From the NCBI RefSeq assembly GCF_014696715.1, contig NZ_JACJQO010000012.1, forward strand, positions 62,001-126,000: a DNA stretch of 64,000 nt. The letters are read 5' to 3'. The notes below the pieces were generated by a model that was not told the DNA's origin, did not search any database, and saw nothing but the letters and a program-made list of their open reading frames with translations. The position numbers and the translations under genes are program-made. Source of the stretch: Pseudanabaena sp. FACHB-2040 (lineage in GTDB: Bacteria > Cyanobacteriota > Cyanobacteriia > Phormidesmidales > Phormidesmidaceae). Positions 55,159 to 60,065 of the stretch are shown here, one piece after another. Numbering within the stretch: the first letter of the stretch is position 1; each line of letters opens with the position of its first letter.

Positions 55159-56814
55159 GTGAATCAAAACTATCCCTCCTTAAGTGAGTTATTGGCGAGC
55201 GACGAAGCGGGGGGCGCGTCTTTTTGGCCGGATGCAGCGGCAGCCGGAGTGTGGGAATCCTCGTCTTCGGCGGGAGCATCCTTAGGGCAAAAATCGCCCT
55301 CGACCAGCGATCGCAACCAGCAGCGGCTACAGGCTGAGGCCGAGTGGTGGAGTGCGATCGCTGCGCTCACTCACATGCTGCACGCCCACCTCGATCAAGG
55401 TCTTAGGGCAGACGAGGAGGGTCTAGCAACTTGGGAAGGCATGGTGTTGTCGGGGCCGCTACCGGTGCTGTGGGACCAGTCCCTAGGCCAGCGGTTGTCA
55501 AGTTGGGTGTTGATTCCCCAACCTCTTGAAGGGCTGTTAGCGGTGGCGCGACCCCTGCTGCCCGATGACGGTAAAGGGGGAGGGCACTCGTCAGAAACGC
55601 TGCAGACCATTCCGCTGCCCGCTGGTGATCCGCTATCGGCTGAGCGGTTTTGTCTGGTGCTGACCCCAACTTTTAGTCTGTCGCTGGTGTTGGCCAATGG
55701 CCCCCAGGGTAGACCCCAGTTTCAGTTTTCCTTTGAGCCCAAGATTAACCAGCAGGTCTGGCAGCAGTTGCGATCGCGCGTGGCCCAGATCCGGCCTCCC
55801 CTGCTACCGACGCTAGACAGCGTAGCCGAACCCTTTGCCCCGCAGCCTCCCCACTACCAAGTCGTGACCCAGTTCACCCGGCTACTGCTGACCCAACTGC
55901 GGCATCAGTTTAGCACCAGCTCTGCTTCTGCAACAGCGGATCCAGAGGTGCGGCTGGCTTCTTGGGAAGTCCCAGCGGCAGCAACTGCAAACGGGTTTTC
56001 CTCGCCCCCAGCCAGCCAGCCCTTGGGCCTGTTGCAGGGGGCAGCCCCGGCCGATGGGGCATCTGCAGAACCGGCAACGGCTGATGCTACTGGCCGTGAT
56101 GCAGAGCTGCTCAAGGCAATGGCCCACGAGATTCGCACGCCCCTCACCACCATTCGCACCTTCACGCGATCACTCTTAAAACGCAAAGATTTGCCTGAGG
56201 AGGCGATTAAGCGACTCAAGCTGATCGATCGGGAGTGCACCCAGCAAATTGACAGGTTCAACCTGATCTTCCGGGCTGTCGAACTTGAAACCGAAGGCCC
56301 TAAGCAGCCCCATTCAACGCTCACAGCGATTTCTCTGAGTCAGATCTTTCAGGACTCGATTGCCCTCTGGCAGCAGCAGGCCCAGCGGCGCAACCTGACG
56401 CTGGAAGTCAAAGTTCCCTCTCAAATGCCGATGGTGACCAGCGATTCGACCATGCTTAACCAGGTGTTGACGGGCCTGATCGACCGCTTTACCCACAGCC
56501 TGCCGCCCTATAGTCACATCAAGCTAGTGGTCAGTCTGGCAGGGCATCAGCTCAAGCTGCAGTTTCAGTCGCAGCCCAAGGCAGAGGCCAAACCGGCTGC
56601 GGAGACTTCTACCTGTCAACGGGCTGCAGTATCCCCATTTCGCTCGGTAGGGCATCTGCTCATGTTCCAACCTGAGACGGGCGGCCTGAGTTTGAACCTA
56701 GCTGCAACCAAGAACCTCTTTCAGGCGTTAGGCGGCAAGCTGATTGTTCGGCAAAAGCCCCAGCGGGGTGAGGTGCTGACAGTTTATTTACCGCTAGAGA
56801 CACGCAGTTTGTAG
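55159..56814 (+). CDS. Histidine-kinase-like protein with H-box but degenerate ATP-binding domain
   Basis: 551 residues from GTG 55159 (a TTG opens at 55078). About 280 residues of unrecognised N-terminal sensor region, Pro/Ala linkers, then a HisKA dimerisation helix with AMAHEIRTPLTTIRTF and His323 as expected phospho-acceptor. The following 200 residues have the length of a HATPase_c domain (LTLEVKVPSQMPMVTSD) but no Asn of the N-box (QVLTGLIDRFTHSL), no DxGxG and only a partial G2 (TGGLSLNLAATKNLF). ATP binding is therefore doubtful. It may be phosphorylated in trans. It is convergent with a kinase of opposite defect. Confidence 0.75.
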   Translation: MNQNYPSLSELLASDEAGGASFWPDAAAAGVWESSSSAGASLGQKSPSTSDRNQQRLQAEAEWWSAIAALTHMLHAHLDQGLRADEEGLATWEGMVLSGPLPVLWDQSLGQRLSSWVLIPQPLEGLLAVARPLLPDDGKGGGHSSETLQTIPLPAGDPLSAERFCLVLTPTFSLSLVLANGPQGRPQFQFSFEPKINQQVWQQLRSRVAQIRPPLLPTLDSVAEPFAPQPPHYQVVTQFTRLLLTQLRHQFSTSSASATADPEVRLASWEVPAAATANGFSSPPASQPLGLLQGAAPADGASAEPATADATGRDAELLKAMAHEIRTPLTTIRTFTRSLLKRKDLPEEAIKRLKLIDRECTQQIDRFNLIFRAVELETEGPKQPHSTLTAISLSQIFQDSIALWQQQAQRRNLTLEVKVPSQMPMVTSDSTMLNQVLTGLIDRFTHSLPPYSHIKLVVSLAGHQLKLQFQSQPKAEAKPAAETSTCQRAAVSPFRSVGHLLMFQPETGGLSLNLAATKNLFQALGGKLIVRQKPQRGEVLTVYLPLETRSL

Positions 56815-56835
56815 CCGCTAGGGCTACCTGCTTCG

Positions 56836-56865
56836 GGTAGAGACGCGATTAACTGTGTCTCTACC
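56836..56865. repeat. Dispersed-type palindromic repeat between the two kinase genes
   Basis: GGTAGAGACGC/GTGTCTCTACC pair over 11 bases (one G-U) around GATTAACT. This GTAGAGACGCGATT-type palindrome is a known kind of dispersed cyanobacterial repeat. It may serve as a bidirectional terminator for the two converging genes. Confidence 0.7.
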
Positions 56866-56880
56866 AATCGTCTTTAGAAA

Positions 56881-58356
56881 TTAGCTCTGGTGCAGCGGTA
56901 GACGCACTCGGAAGCTACTGCCGTTGCCGGGCTGGCTTTGAACCAGAATGGAGCCACCGCAGTAGGACAAAAGCTGCTGCACAATCGAGAGCCCCAACCC
57001 GGCTCCCTCGGGTACGCCGGGAGGGATATTGCGCCCTCGGTAGAAATGCTCAAACAAATTAGGCAGTTCTGAAGCCGCAATACCGACGCCCGTATCGCGA
57101 ATCTCCAGTTCGGCAAACTCTTCCTGCTGGCAGGCCGTGACCCAAACTCGCCCGCCCGCTTGGGTAAACTTGATGCTGTTATTCAGTAGATGAATCATGA
57201 TTTGACGCAGCCAGGCTTCTGGGCAGGCGACCGCCGGTAAATCATTGGAAATGGTGTAAGCCAGCAGGATGCCTCGCTCCTCGGCTAGGGGTTGGTAGGT
57301 GCTGACGATAGGCGGTACGGTGTCGGCCAGCCGCAGAGCCTGGGGCCGCACGTGTTCTAGGCTGGTTTCCATTTGCAGCAGGTCTAGTACCCCGCTGATT
57401 AGGGAACTTTGGCGATCGCACTCCTGAGTAATCATGTCCATGTACCGCTGTCGCTGGGGCGCTTTTAAGCTGGGGGAATTGAGCAGCGTCAAGGCTGTCT
57501 TAATGGTAGAGAGCGGCGTTCGCAGCTCCTGCCCGATCGTGTTGAGAAAGTCATCCTTGAGCCGCAGCGTATTCAGCAGCACTTCGTTTTGAGAAGACAG
57601 GTTGGAGGCCGCTAGAGCCTGCTTGCGATAGGCTGCAATGGACTGGCGCAGGTGTTCCTGCTGCCTTAGCTGCCAGCCTAACCAACGATCTAGCAGAGCT
57701 GTTCCGGTAGGGCCTTCGGTGGACGGTGGGCAGTACTGCTCCCAGTGTTCTAACAAGTCCTGTATAGCCGTATTGTCGGGGTGCTGCTGCGCGGATCGCT
57801 CCACTACAGCTCGAACAGATGTGGTCAGGGCATCGATCAGCTCAGGGTTGACCGAGCAGCAGACTTCTAGATAGAGCGAGTTGTTGGGAAAGCTGCCTTC
57901 TGGCAGATCTAAAGCTGGGTCTGATCGCTCTAGATTGTCTTCGGTAGGGCTGGCATGAACTGCAGACGCAGACTGCAGACGATGCACGACCAGCAGCCCA
58001 CAAAAAGTCTGAGACAGGATGATCAGAAAATACTCGCCTCGCCAGATCTGCGGTCCATCTAGCGGCAAAAGCGCCGTTCCGTAGGGAACGGCTGCTTCTG
58101 AGGTGCGGCTAAAGCTGTAGAGACGGCTGCGCCCGTCCATTGCTTGGTAGTACCGCTGAATATCTTCCTGCCAGAGCGCGCCTTTAGGAAATTTCGCCAG
58201 CACGGTGCCGCTCACCTGGTAAGTTTCCAGGAAATCGGCGGTTAACTGCAGAATGGCTTTAAATCCCTTGGGCTTGATTTGAATGACGTCTGGGTTAGCG
58301 GAGCTGCCTTGAATAATGCGTCGCAGTGAATCTGCTTCATAGCGGTAGGACTGCAT
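56881..58356 (-). CDS. DICT-domain histidine-kinase-like protein with Gln in place of the phospho-His
   Basis: 491 residues. An N-terminal DICT sensory domain (about 25-125; VLAKFPKGALWQEDIQRYYQ, SRLYSFSRTSEAAVPYGTALLPLDG). Then a coiled region and HisKA-like helix in which the H-box reads NTIGQELRTPLSTIK: Gln276 (codon CAG on the minus strand) stands where His is required. The HATPase_c domain is intact: N-box IHLLNNSIKFTQ, G1 EIRDTGVGI, F-box LFEHFYRG, G2 EGAGLGLSIVQQLL. It can bind ATP but cannot phosphorylate itself on that position. It is convergent with the gene at 55159. Confidence 0.85.
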   Translation of the reverse strand: MQSYRYEADSLRRIIQGSSANPDVIQIKPKGFKAILQLTADFLETYQVSGTVLAKFPKGALWQEDIQRYYQAMDGRSRLYSFSRTSEAAVPYGTALLPLDGPQIWRGEYFLIILSQTFCGLLVVHRLQSASAVHASPTEDNLERSDPALDLPEGSFPNNSLYLEVCCSVNPELIDALTTSVRAVVERSAQQHPDNTAIQDLLEHWEQYCPPSTEGPTGTALLDRWLGWQLRQQEHLRQSIAAYRKQALAASNLSSQNEVLLNTLRLKDDFLNTIGQELRTPLSTIKTALTLLNSPSLKAPQRQRYMDMITQECDRQSSLISGVLDLLQMETSLEHVRPQALRLADTVPPIVSTYQPLAEERGILLAYTISNDLPAVACPEAWLRQIMIHLLNNSIKFTQAGGRVWVTACQQEEFAELEIRDTGVGIAASELPNLFEHFYRGRNIPPGVPEGAGLGLSIVQQLLSYCGGSILVQSQPGNGSSFRVRLPLHQS

Positions 58357-58550: not shown

Positions 58551-60065
58551 TCATAAATTGGAGTACCGCAGCATTAGCGCCTCACGGGCCTGTTCGCGAT
58601 CGTCAAAATGAATTTTTTCGGTGCCTAGGATTTGATAGTCCTCATGCCCCTTGCCTGCAATCAAAATGCCGTCACCAGGCTGGGCTTGCAGGATGGCGCT
58701 GCGGATAGCGGCGGCGCGATCGCAAATCACCGACTGCTCATCCAGTTCAGCCGGAATGCCCGCCAAAATGTCTTGCAAGATTTGCTCAGGGTCTTCGGTA
58801 CGGGGGTTATCAGAGGTGACTACCACTACGTCGGCTAGCTCATAGGCGATGCGGCCCATCTGGGGACGTTTGGTGCGATCGCGATCGCCACCGCAGCCAA
58901 ACACGCAGATCAAACGGCCCTCAATAAAGGGACGAGCGGCTGCCAGAGAGCTTTTCACACTGTCGGGAGTGTGAGCGTAGTCAACAATCACGCTGATGTC
59001 CTGATCTTCGCGGACCTGCACCCGCTCCATCCGTCCGGGCACGCCAGGGAACTGGGGCAGAACCGCCACGATCGTCTCCAGCGCAACGCCCAGCTGCAGC
59101 GCCGCCCCTACGGCCGCCAGCAGGTTCTCTAGGTTAAACTGCCCCACCAGCGGTGAGGTAAAGGCGGCAGTGCCTAAAGGCGTGTGGATCTGGCCGCTGA
59201 CGCCAGTGGCCTGGTATTGCAGGTCGCTGGTATAGAGATCGGCAGCGGTATCAGTGCTGTAGCTCCAGACCTGTTCTGGGCCGAGCTGCTCAATGAGCCT
59301 TTGCCCGTAGGAATCTTTTTGGTTTACCAAAGCCCGTCCCCGCAGGTAATGCTCGCTAAACAGTAGGGCTTTGGCTCTGAAGTAACTCTCTAGATCCGGG
59401 TGAAAGTCGAGGTGATCTTGGGTCAGGTTGGTGAAGACAGCCACCTTAAAGAGGCAGCCCCAGACCCGCTGCTGGGCCAGTGCGTGAGAGCTGACCTCCA
59501 TCACCGCCACCGCTGCCCCAGCCTCTTGCGCTGCCGCCAGATCGGCCTGCAGTTCGAGGGCAAAGGGCGTGGTGTGCAGCGCCGTTCTTTGGTGCCCAGG
59601 CCAGCGGCTGTAGAGCGTGCCTAGCAGTGCCGTGGGGGTTTGTCCTGCCTGCAGCAGGTATTCAATTAGGTGGGTGGTGGTGGTTTTGCCGTTGGTGCCG
59701 GTGACACCTACTAGCTGCAGCTGTCGTGCGGGGTAACCATAAAACGCTGCCGCCAACTCAGCACAGGCTACGACCATATCGGCTAGGGGAATGACGCAGG
59801 CCTCAGCGAACTCATCTGCAGGGCGATTTTCGAGGGCCGAGGGAGACACTAGGGCTGCGATCGCACCCGCTGCGATCGCACTAGGCCAAAATTCTCCGCC
59901 ATCAACTCGCGTGCCTGGCATGCCAATAAACACATCGCCAGCCTGGCAGGCATGGGAGTTGGTACACAGCCCTTTGACCTCAGCCTCTAGTGCGGCGTGG
60001 TCTGGAAGAGACTCTAGAGCGATCAGCCTTTCAGGCAAGCAAGCCAACAGTTCACGCAGGTTCAT
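58551..60065 (-). CDS. murE: UDP-N-acetylmuramoyl-L-alanyl-D-glutamate--2,6-diaminopimelate ligase
   Basis: 504 residues. Adds meso-diaminopimelate to UDP-MurNAc-L-Ala-D-Glu. ATP loop GVTGTNGKTTT at about 110, the Mur-ligase FTNLTQDHLDFHPDLESYF block, the VIVDYAHTPDSVKSSL region, and the DAP-specifying motif SDNPRTEDP near residue 410, whose Asp-Asn-Pro-Arg distinguishes meso-DAP from lysine ligases. The C-terminal GKGHEDYQILGTEKIHFDDREQA is standard. Cytoplasmic; a glutaredoxin-like gene lies 35 bases upstream on the same strand. It is isolated from other mur genes, as in many cyanobacteria. Confidence 0.97.
   Translation of the reverse strand: MNLRELLACLPERLIALESLPDHAALEAEVKGLCTNSHACQAGDVFIGMPGTRVDGGEFWPSAIAAGAIAALVSPSALENRPADEFAEACVIPLADMVVACAELAAAFYGYPARQLQLVGVTGTNGKTTTTHLIEYLLQAGQTPTALLGTLYSRWPGHQRTALHTTPFALELQADLAAAQEAGAAVAVMEVSSHALAQQRVWGCLFKVAVFTNLTQDHLDFHPDLESYFRAKALLFSEHYLRGRALVNQKDSYGQRLIEQLGPEQVWSYSTDTAADLYTSDLQYQATGVSGQIHTPLGTAAFTSPLVGQFNLENLLAAVGAALQLGVALETIVAVLPQFPGVPGRMERVQVREDQDISVIVDYAHTPDSVKSSLAAARPFIEGRLICVFGCGGDRDRTKRPQMGRIAYELADVVVVTSDNPRTEDPEQILQDILAGIPAELDEQSVICDRAAAIRSAILQAQPGDGILIAGKGHEDYQILGTEKIHFDDREQAREALMLRYSNL

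Follow-up and report, generated by a model that had tools for sequence, protein, structure and literature searches.

In the window analysed here, a stretch of 64,000 nucleotides from Pseudanabaena sp. FACHB-2040, two neighbouring genes, which we call F1 and F2, encode related histidine kinase-like proteins that have lost complementary parts of the active site. F1 keeps the phospho-acceptor histidine and its ATP site is degenerate; F2 has an intact ATP site and a glutamine at the position of the histidine. Thus, His and ATP site reside on separate proteins, as a split histidine kinase requires. The complementary losses are real, conserved and unusual, and from them we infer a mechanism in which F2 would phosphorylate F1.

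Reciprocal active-site losses in F1 and F2

F1 (55159-56814, plus strand; 551 aa with a GTG start; AlphaFold mean pLDDT 81.6) is composed of a DICT-like N-terminal domain, a HisKA domain and a degenerate ATPase lobe. Its predicted phospho-acceptor, His323 (codon CAC at 56125-56127, plus strand), lies in the H-box AHEIRTPL. In an alignment of 97 homologues from cyanobacterial genomes this residue is His in 97/97, and E324 and T327 are found in 95/97 and 97/97, respectively, so that both the H-box and the HExxT motif are kept. In the same alignment the N-box Asn is replaced by Asp in 53 members and by Glu in 44 (Asp442 in F1, at 56482-56484, plus strand), the DxGxG motif is absent and the F-box region is a gap-rich linker. 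Pfam detects the HisKA domain, and the HATPase_c match stays below threshold, with 14.2 bits against a cut-off of 26.4. An earlier note on this DNA had described an AHEIRTPL box with His323, no N-box Asn and no DxGxG; the homologues agree with this description, and the lost ATP site proves to be conserved throughout the family. Judged by its sequence, F1 would be unable to bind ATP or to autophosphorylate alone.

F2 (56881-58356, minus strand; 491 aa; AlphaFold mean pLDDT 89.4) contains a DICT domain (PF10069; 52.6 bits against a Pfam cut-off of 23.8), a HisKA domain also found by Pfam and a strong, intact HATPase_c domain (86.7 bits). In its H-box, GQELRTPL, the phospho-acceptor position is occupied by Gln276 (codon CAG at 57529-57531, minus strand). 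Among 108 homologues from cyanobacterial genomes, position 276 is Gln in 99, Leu in 3, Arg in 3, Glu in 2 and His in 1, while Asn393, Asp421, Gly423, Phe435 and Phe438 are invariant (108/108) and the G2-box glycines are present in about 105 of the 108. The residues that follow the acceptor position are E277 (103/108) and T280 (88/108), the latter less conserved than the ATP site. The alignment shows no further conserved His in the helical domain, the only His-rich columns being 125 and 392. The reading of F2 in the earlier note, with intact ATP boxes and Gln276 at the acceptor position, is therefore upheld, and with 107 of 108 homologues being non-His the H-to-Q change is a trait of the family and not a local mutation. 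It is moreover specific to F2, since a second DICT kinase of the same genome has GHELRTPL with a normal His. Glutamine cannot carry a phosphoryl group, and because the ATP site is complete F2 would have to act on a different substrate or use its ATP in some other way.

An orthodox HisKA kinase combines an acceptor His with N, G1, F and G2 boxes. F1 has the His and lacks the N and G1 boxes, and F2 has the boxes and lacks the His. The alignment of the two proteins covers the greater part of their length (hhalign E 1.2e-28); their N-terminal halves alone match with 96% probability (E 4e-9). The Pfam DICT model (PF10069) gives weak matches to 8 of 91 F1 members, the best with an E-value of 0.0021 and below the Pfam cut-off. 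Since the N-terminal halves match and Pfam adds this weak signal, F1 is a divergent DICT protein too, with the domain at about residues 88-258 (55420-55930, plus strand); the assignment of DICT to F2 only, as first proposed, has to be corrected. By profile comparison, F1 and F2 are collinear relatives that share a DICT-HisKA-HATPase layout. In a kinase-core tree they form two distinct clades, so that a direct duplication of one family from the other finds no support there. The reciprocal loss of the active site is an old family trait, as the same states are seen across 97 F1 and 108 F2 homologues.

The sole homologue with His276 (L033:1012-2709, in genome G025) has the codon CAT, one base off Gln, and two genus mates have Gln276 codons CAA and CAG. 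This His is an apparent reversion, and the F1 of the same genome is still ATP-dead. In one genus there are F2 homologues of about 254-280 aa that have no DICT domain (L142:1474-2235 and L138:1333-2172), and the first of them retains Gln at the His position (TQELNNPI).

Gene neighbourhood and distribution

The two genes face each other across a hairpin (56836-56865) with terminator-like folding. The palindrome that the earlier note placed between them is thus present, but it is a dispersed repeat, GTAGAGACGCGATTAA, with 27 near-copies in this genome; not being specific to this pair, it was rejected as a functional link between F1 and F2. As convergent genes, F1 and F2 do not form a single operon, and no response regulator gene is linked to them.

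F1 and F2 were found on the same contig in 39 genomes and lie at most 20 kb apart in 23 of these, while the chance of finding them within 20 kb is, by our own estimate, about 0.8% per genome of 5 Mb. The 12 closest pairs (less than 2 kb apart) are all convergent and come from families f1, f7, f18, f25, f27, f32 and f39. F2 lies convergent downstream of F1 in 20 of 80 named F1 loci, and other orientations were seen in none; the linked convergent loci include Nostoc, Moorena, Microcoleus, Chroococcus, Gloeocapsopsis, Calothrix, Laspinema and Leptolyngbya. Among the 20 named loci with F2 beside F1, position 276 is Gln in 19 and Leu in 1. The facing arrangement therefore recurs, in at least seven families, but the linkage comes partly from a third gene. 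In 18 of the 20 linked named loci murE (58551-60065, minus strand, in this window) belongs to a conserved block in which F1 is followed by F2 and murE, both on the opposite strand, and it is near F2 in 51 F2 loci of many families, also where F1 lies elsewhere. The block looks like inherited synteny. Because murE, which we do not propose as a kinase component, shares it, linkage of F1 and F2 is not strong evidence of joint function, and as proof of function it was downgraded once murE had been found in the block and independently beside F2.

We searched 242 cyanobacterial genomes with F1 and F2, calling F2 above 170 bits. F1 is present in 231 of them (95%), including picocyanobacterial genomes of 1.6-1.7 Mb, and thus appears to be part of a near-core cyanobacterial signalling set, even in picocyanobacteria with a handful of histidine kinases. 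F2 is present in 110 genomes, and the 11 genomes without F1 likewise have no F2. The F1-less genomes are those of genus g25 in family f16, of families f33 and f30, and genome G064. The co-occurrence expected from the earlier note held in one direction, with F1 in 110/110 genomes that have F2, and failed in the other, as about 120 of the 242 genomes have F1 without F2, with the dead ATP lobe and the His retained. That F2 is never seen without F1 lends little weight, since F1 is nearly universal. In Anabaenopsis and Sphaerospermopsis the state of F1 is unchanged after the loss of F2; in Anabaenopsis elenkinii F1 adjoins murE, and an F2 ortholog was not found in the record. As F1 survives F2 loss, an obligate pair is ruled out, and the heteromeric kinase proposed in the earlier note is supported in part, though not as an exclusive pair. 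In the F2-less picocyanobacteria the other kinases that were read, including SasA-, NblS- and Hik2-like ones, have normal H-boxes.

A different neighbour is found in the Gloeobacter-like (f13) and Thermostichus-like (f5) families and in family f29, where the gene after F1, on the same strand, encodes a short kinase of 213-350 aa (L200:2198-2860, L202:2103-2795, L181:769-1491, L184:2800-3600, L185:2457-3506 and L186:630-1610). It has its own His (HQLRNP or HELRNP) and an intact ATP site, and by its length it has no room for a GAF sensor domain beside the kinase core; those genomes contain no better match to it elsewhere. In the kinase-core tree it groups with GAF-type kinases taken as Hik2/Chloroplast Sensor Kinase (CSK), a label given to the clade from layout and distribution, with no named Hik2 sequence in the comparison. 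These short kinases may have been the original operon partner of F1, and the arrangement suggests that the older partner of F1 is a Hik2-type kinase and F2 a later arrival. Since this neighbour carries a His itself, F1 does not make up half of a pair in every lineage. F1 was also considered as Hik2 itself and rejected, as the clades are separate in the tree.

Possible roles of F1 and F2

With an invariant acceptor His and its ATP binding predicted to be lost, F1 should need another kinase. In the mechanism that we favour, F1 would be a dedicated phospho-acceptor subunit that does not bind ATP, and probably a phosphatase too, and F2 would be a dedicated ATP-binding subunit unable to take phosphate. 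Contacts between their HisKA helices, and perhaps also between the related DICT domains, would hold them together; the ATP lobe of F2 would phosphorylate His323 of F1 in trans, and the phosphate would then move from F1 to a response regulator. We infer the heteromer, its trans-phosphorylation step, a response regulator and a signal, and we would give the idea that F2 phosphorylates F1 in trans within such a heteromer somewhat less than an even chance. Co-variation between the families, at an effective depth of 32 sequences, shows no excess for the HisKA-HisKA pair over other domain pairs, and every region pair is similarly above full shuffles, as expected from shared ancestry.

Where F2 is missing, a different ATP-competent kinase may serve F1, and the Hik2/CSK type is the most likely candidate, since the Gloeobacter- and Thermostichus-like lineages have a kinase of that clade in tandem with F1. 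The wider proposal, that two related, full-length DICT proteins make up an orthodox-HisKA split kinase whose near-universal His subunit can also be served by Hik2/CSK-type kinases, is put forward tentatively, as possible rather than probable. Against the pairing of F1 with F2 stands the fact that F1 retains its His and its dead ATP lobe where F2 is absent.

This persistence without F2 would be expected if F1 were kinase-dead and regulated a complete kinase (Hik2, for example) by dephosphorylating, inhibiting or bridging it, with F2 acting separately. The model for such a protein is RetS of Pseudomonas aeruginosa, which has a degenerate HATPase domain, keeps the H-box and HExxT motif and has phosphatase activity (PMC5992135). 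F1 resembles it in these motifs, including the conserved E324 and T327. RetS works on another kinase, GacS, and F1 has a Hik2-clade kinase as its tandem neighbour in early lineages; the best solved-structure relatives of F1 by sequence and fold include ZraS, RetS and DivL. However, RetS is a hybrid with receivers, while a domain scan detected no receiver domain in the F1 family, whose DICT-HisKA-HATPase layout is unlike that of RetS; and GacS, the partner of RetS, has retained a His, which F2 lacks. It is not obvious why a protein that only dephosphorylates or inhibits should need His in 97/97 homologues, and both the H-to-Q change of F2 and the restriction of F2 to F1-bearing genomes are left unexplained. 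We consider this reading unlikely, but combined with a separate role of F2, as a kinase-dead phosphatase or an ATP-gated modulator, it makes up the main rival of the favoured mechanism.

Less probable still is that F2 is kinase-minus and phosphatase-plus by nature and works on a regulator rather than on F1. Its QExxT motif and full nucleotide-binding site would suit that activity, and the acceptor position varies among Q, L, R and E, as if only the loss of His mattered. There is a precedent for the substitution in the laboratory variant NarX H399Q, in which autokinase activity was reportedly removed and dephosphorylation left. However, conservation at T280 falls below that of the ATP site, and the complementary state of F1 would have no explanation.

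It seems more doubtful again that F1 and F2 are independent allosteric or scaffold pseudokinases, the ATP binding of F2 giving only a conformational signal. Such scaffolds exist: DivL of Caulobacter is a HisKA-HATPase protein with Tyr for His, and works by way of CckA and DivK. Both F1 and F2 have DivL among their best fold matches (the relatives of F2 in fold and sequence being otherwise ordinary kinases such as HK853), and DivL resembles F2 in having another residue at the His position, although its sensor is different. F1 and F2 are also not obligate partners. Nevertheless, an invariant His in F1 and an invariant full catalytic site in F2, each kept in about 100 genomes, exceed what a scaffold needs. 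The identical states in 97 and 108 homologues practically exclude a local decay or a sequencing error in the genome studied here.

Comparison with known systems

In the open literature, with most subscription journals outside its scope, our search found no papers describing the F1 or F2 family; no viral relatives were found. The closest precedent for the favoured split between F1 and F2 is the pair CheA3/CheA4 of Rhodobacter sphaeroides, a His protein and an ATP-domain protein neither of which autophosphorylates alone (PMC3591291). In both cases the phosphorylatable His and the ATP-binding domain are on two proteins, although for F1 and F2 this is known from sequence. CheA3 and CheA4 belong to the CheA class and are missing whole domains, whereas F1 and F2 keep the layout and have lost motifs. 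In Synechocystis, Hik36-Hik43 is a histidine kinase encoded by two genes, and the part with the His lies on one of the two proteins (PMC7656254); unlike F1 and F2, it is of the CheA/HPt type, lies in a chemotaxis-like cluster and has an unrelated layout. If F2 (or Hik2) phosphorylates F1, theirs would be a split kinase of the orthodox class and a natural division of labour between related proteins.

Hik2, or Chloroplast Sensor Kinase, is reported from all cyanobacteria, has a GAF sensor and autophosphorylates alone on a conserved His (PMC4751278). It differs from F1 in this sensor and in phosphorylating itself, and presumed members of its clade adjoin F1 in early lineages. Phosphorylation of F1 by F2 or Hik2 would also mean a missing component beside a chloroplast-related redox kinase.

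The paralogous orthodox kinases ChrS and HrrS of Corynebacterium heterodimerise in their native forms in two-hybrid assays (PMC9491836). A ChrS pseudokinase that arose in the laboratory by a frameshift has a broken ATP domain; its truncated form showed no heterodimerisation, and its His was dispensable (PMC9491836). The likeness to F1 and F2 lies in a paralogous pair of which one form has a broken ATP domain, and the difference in the laboratory-evolved frameshift.
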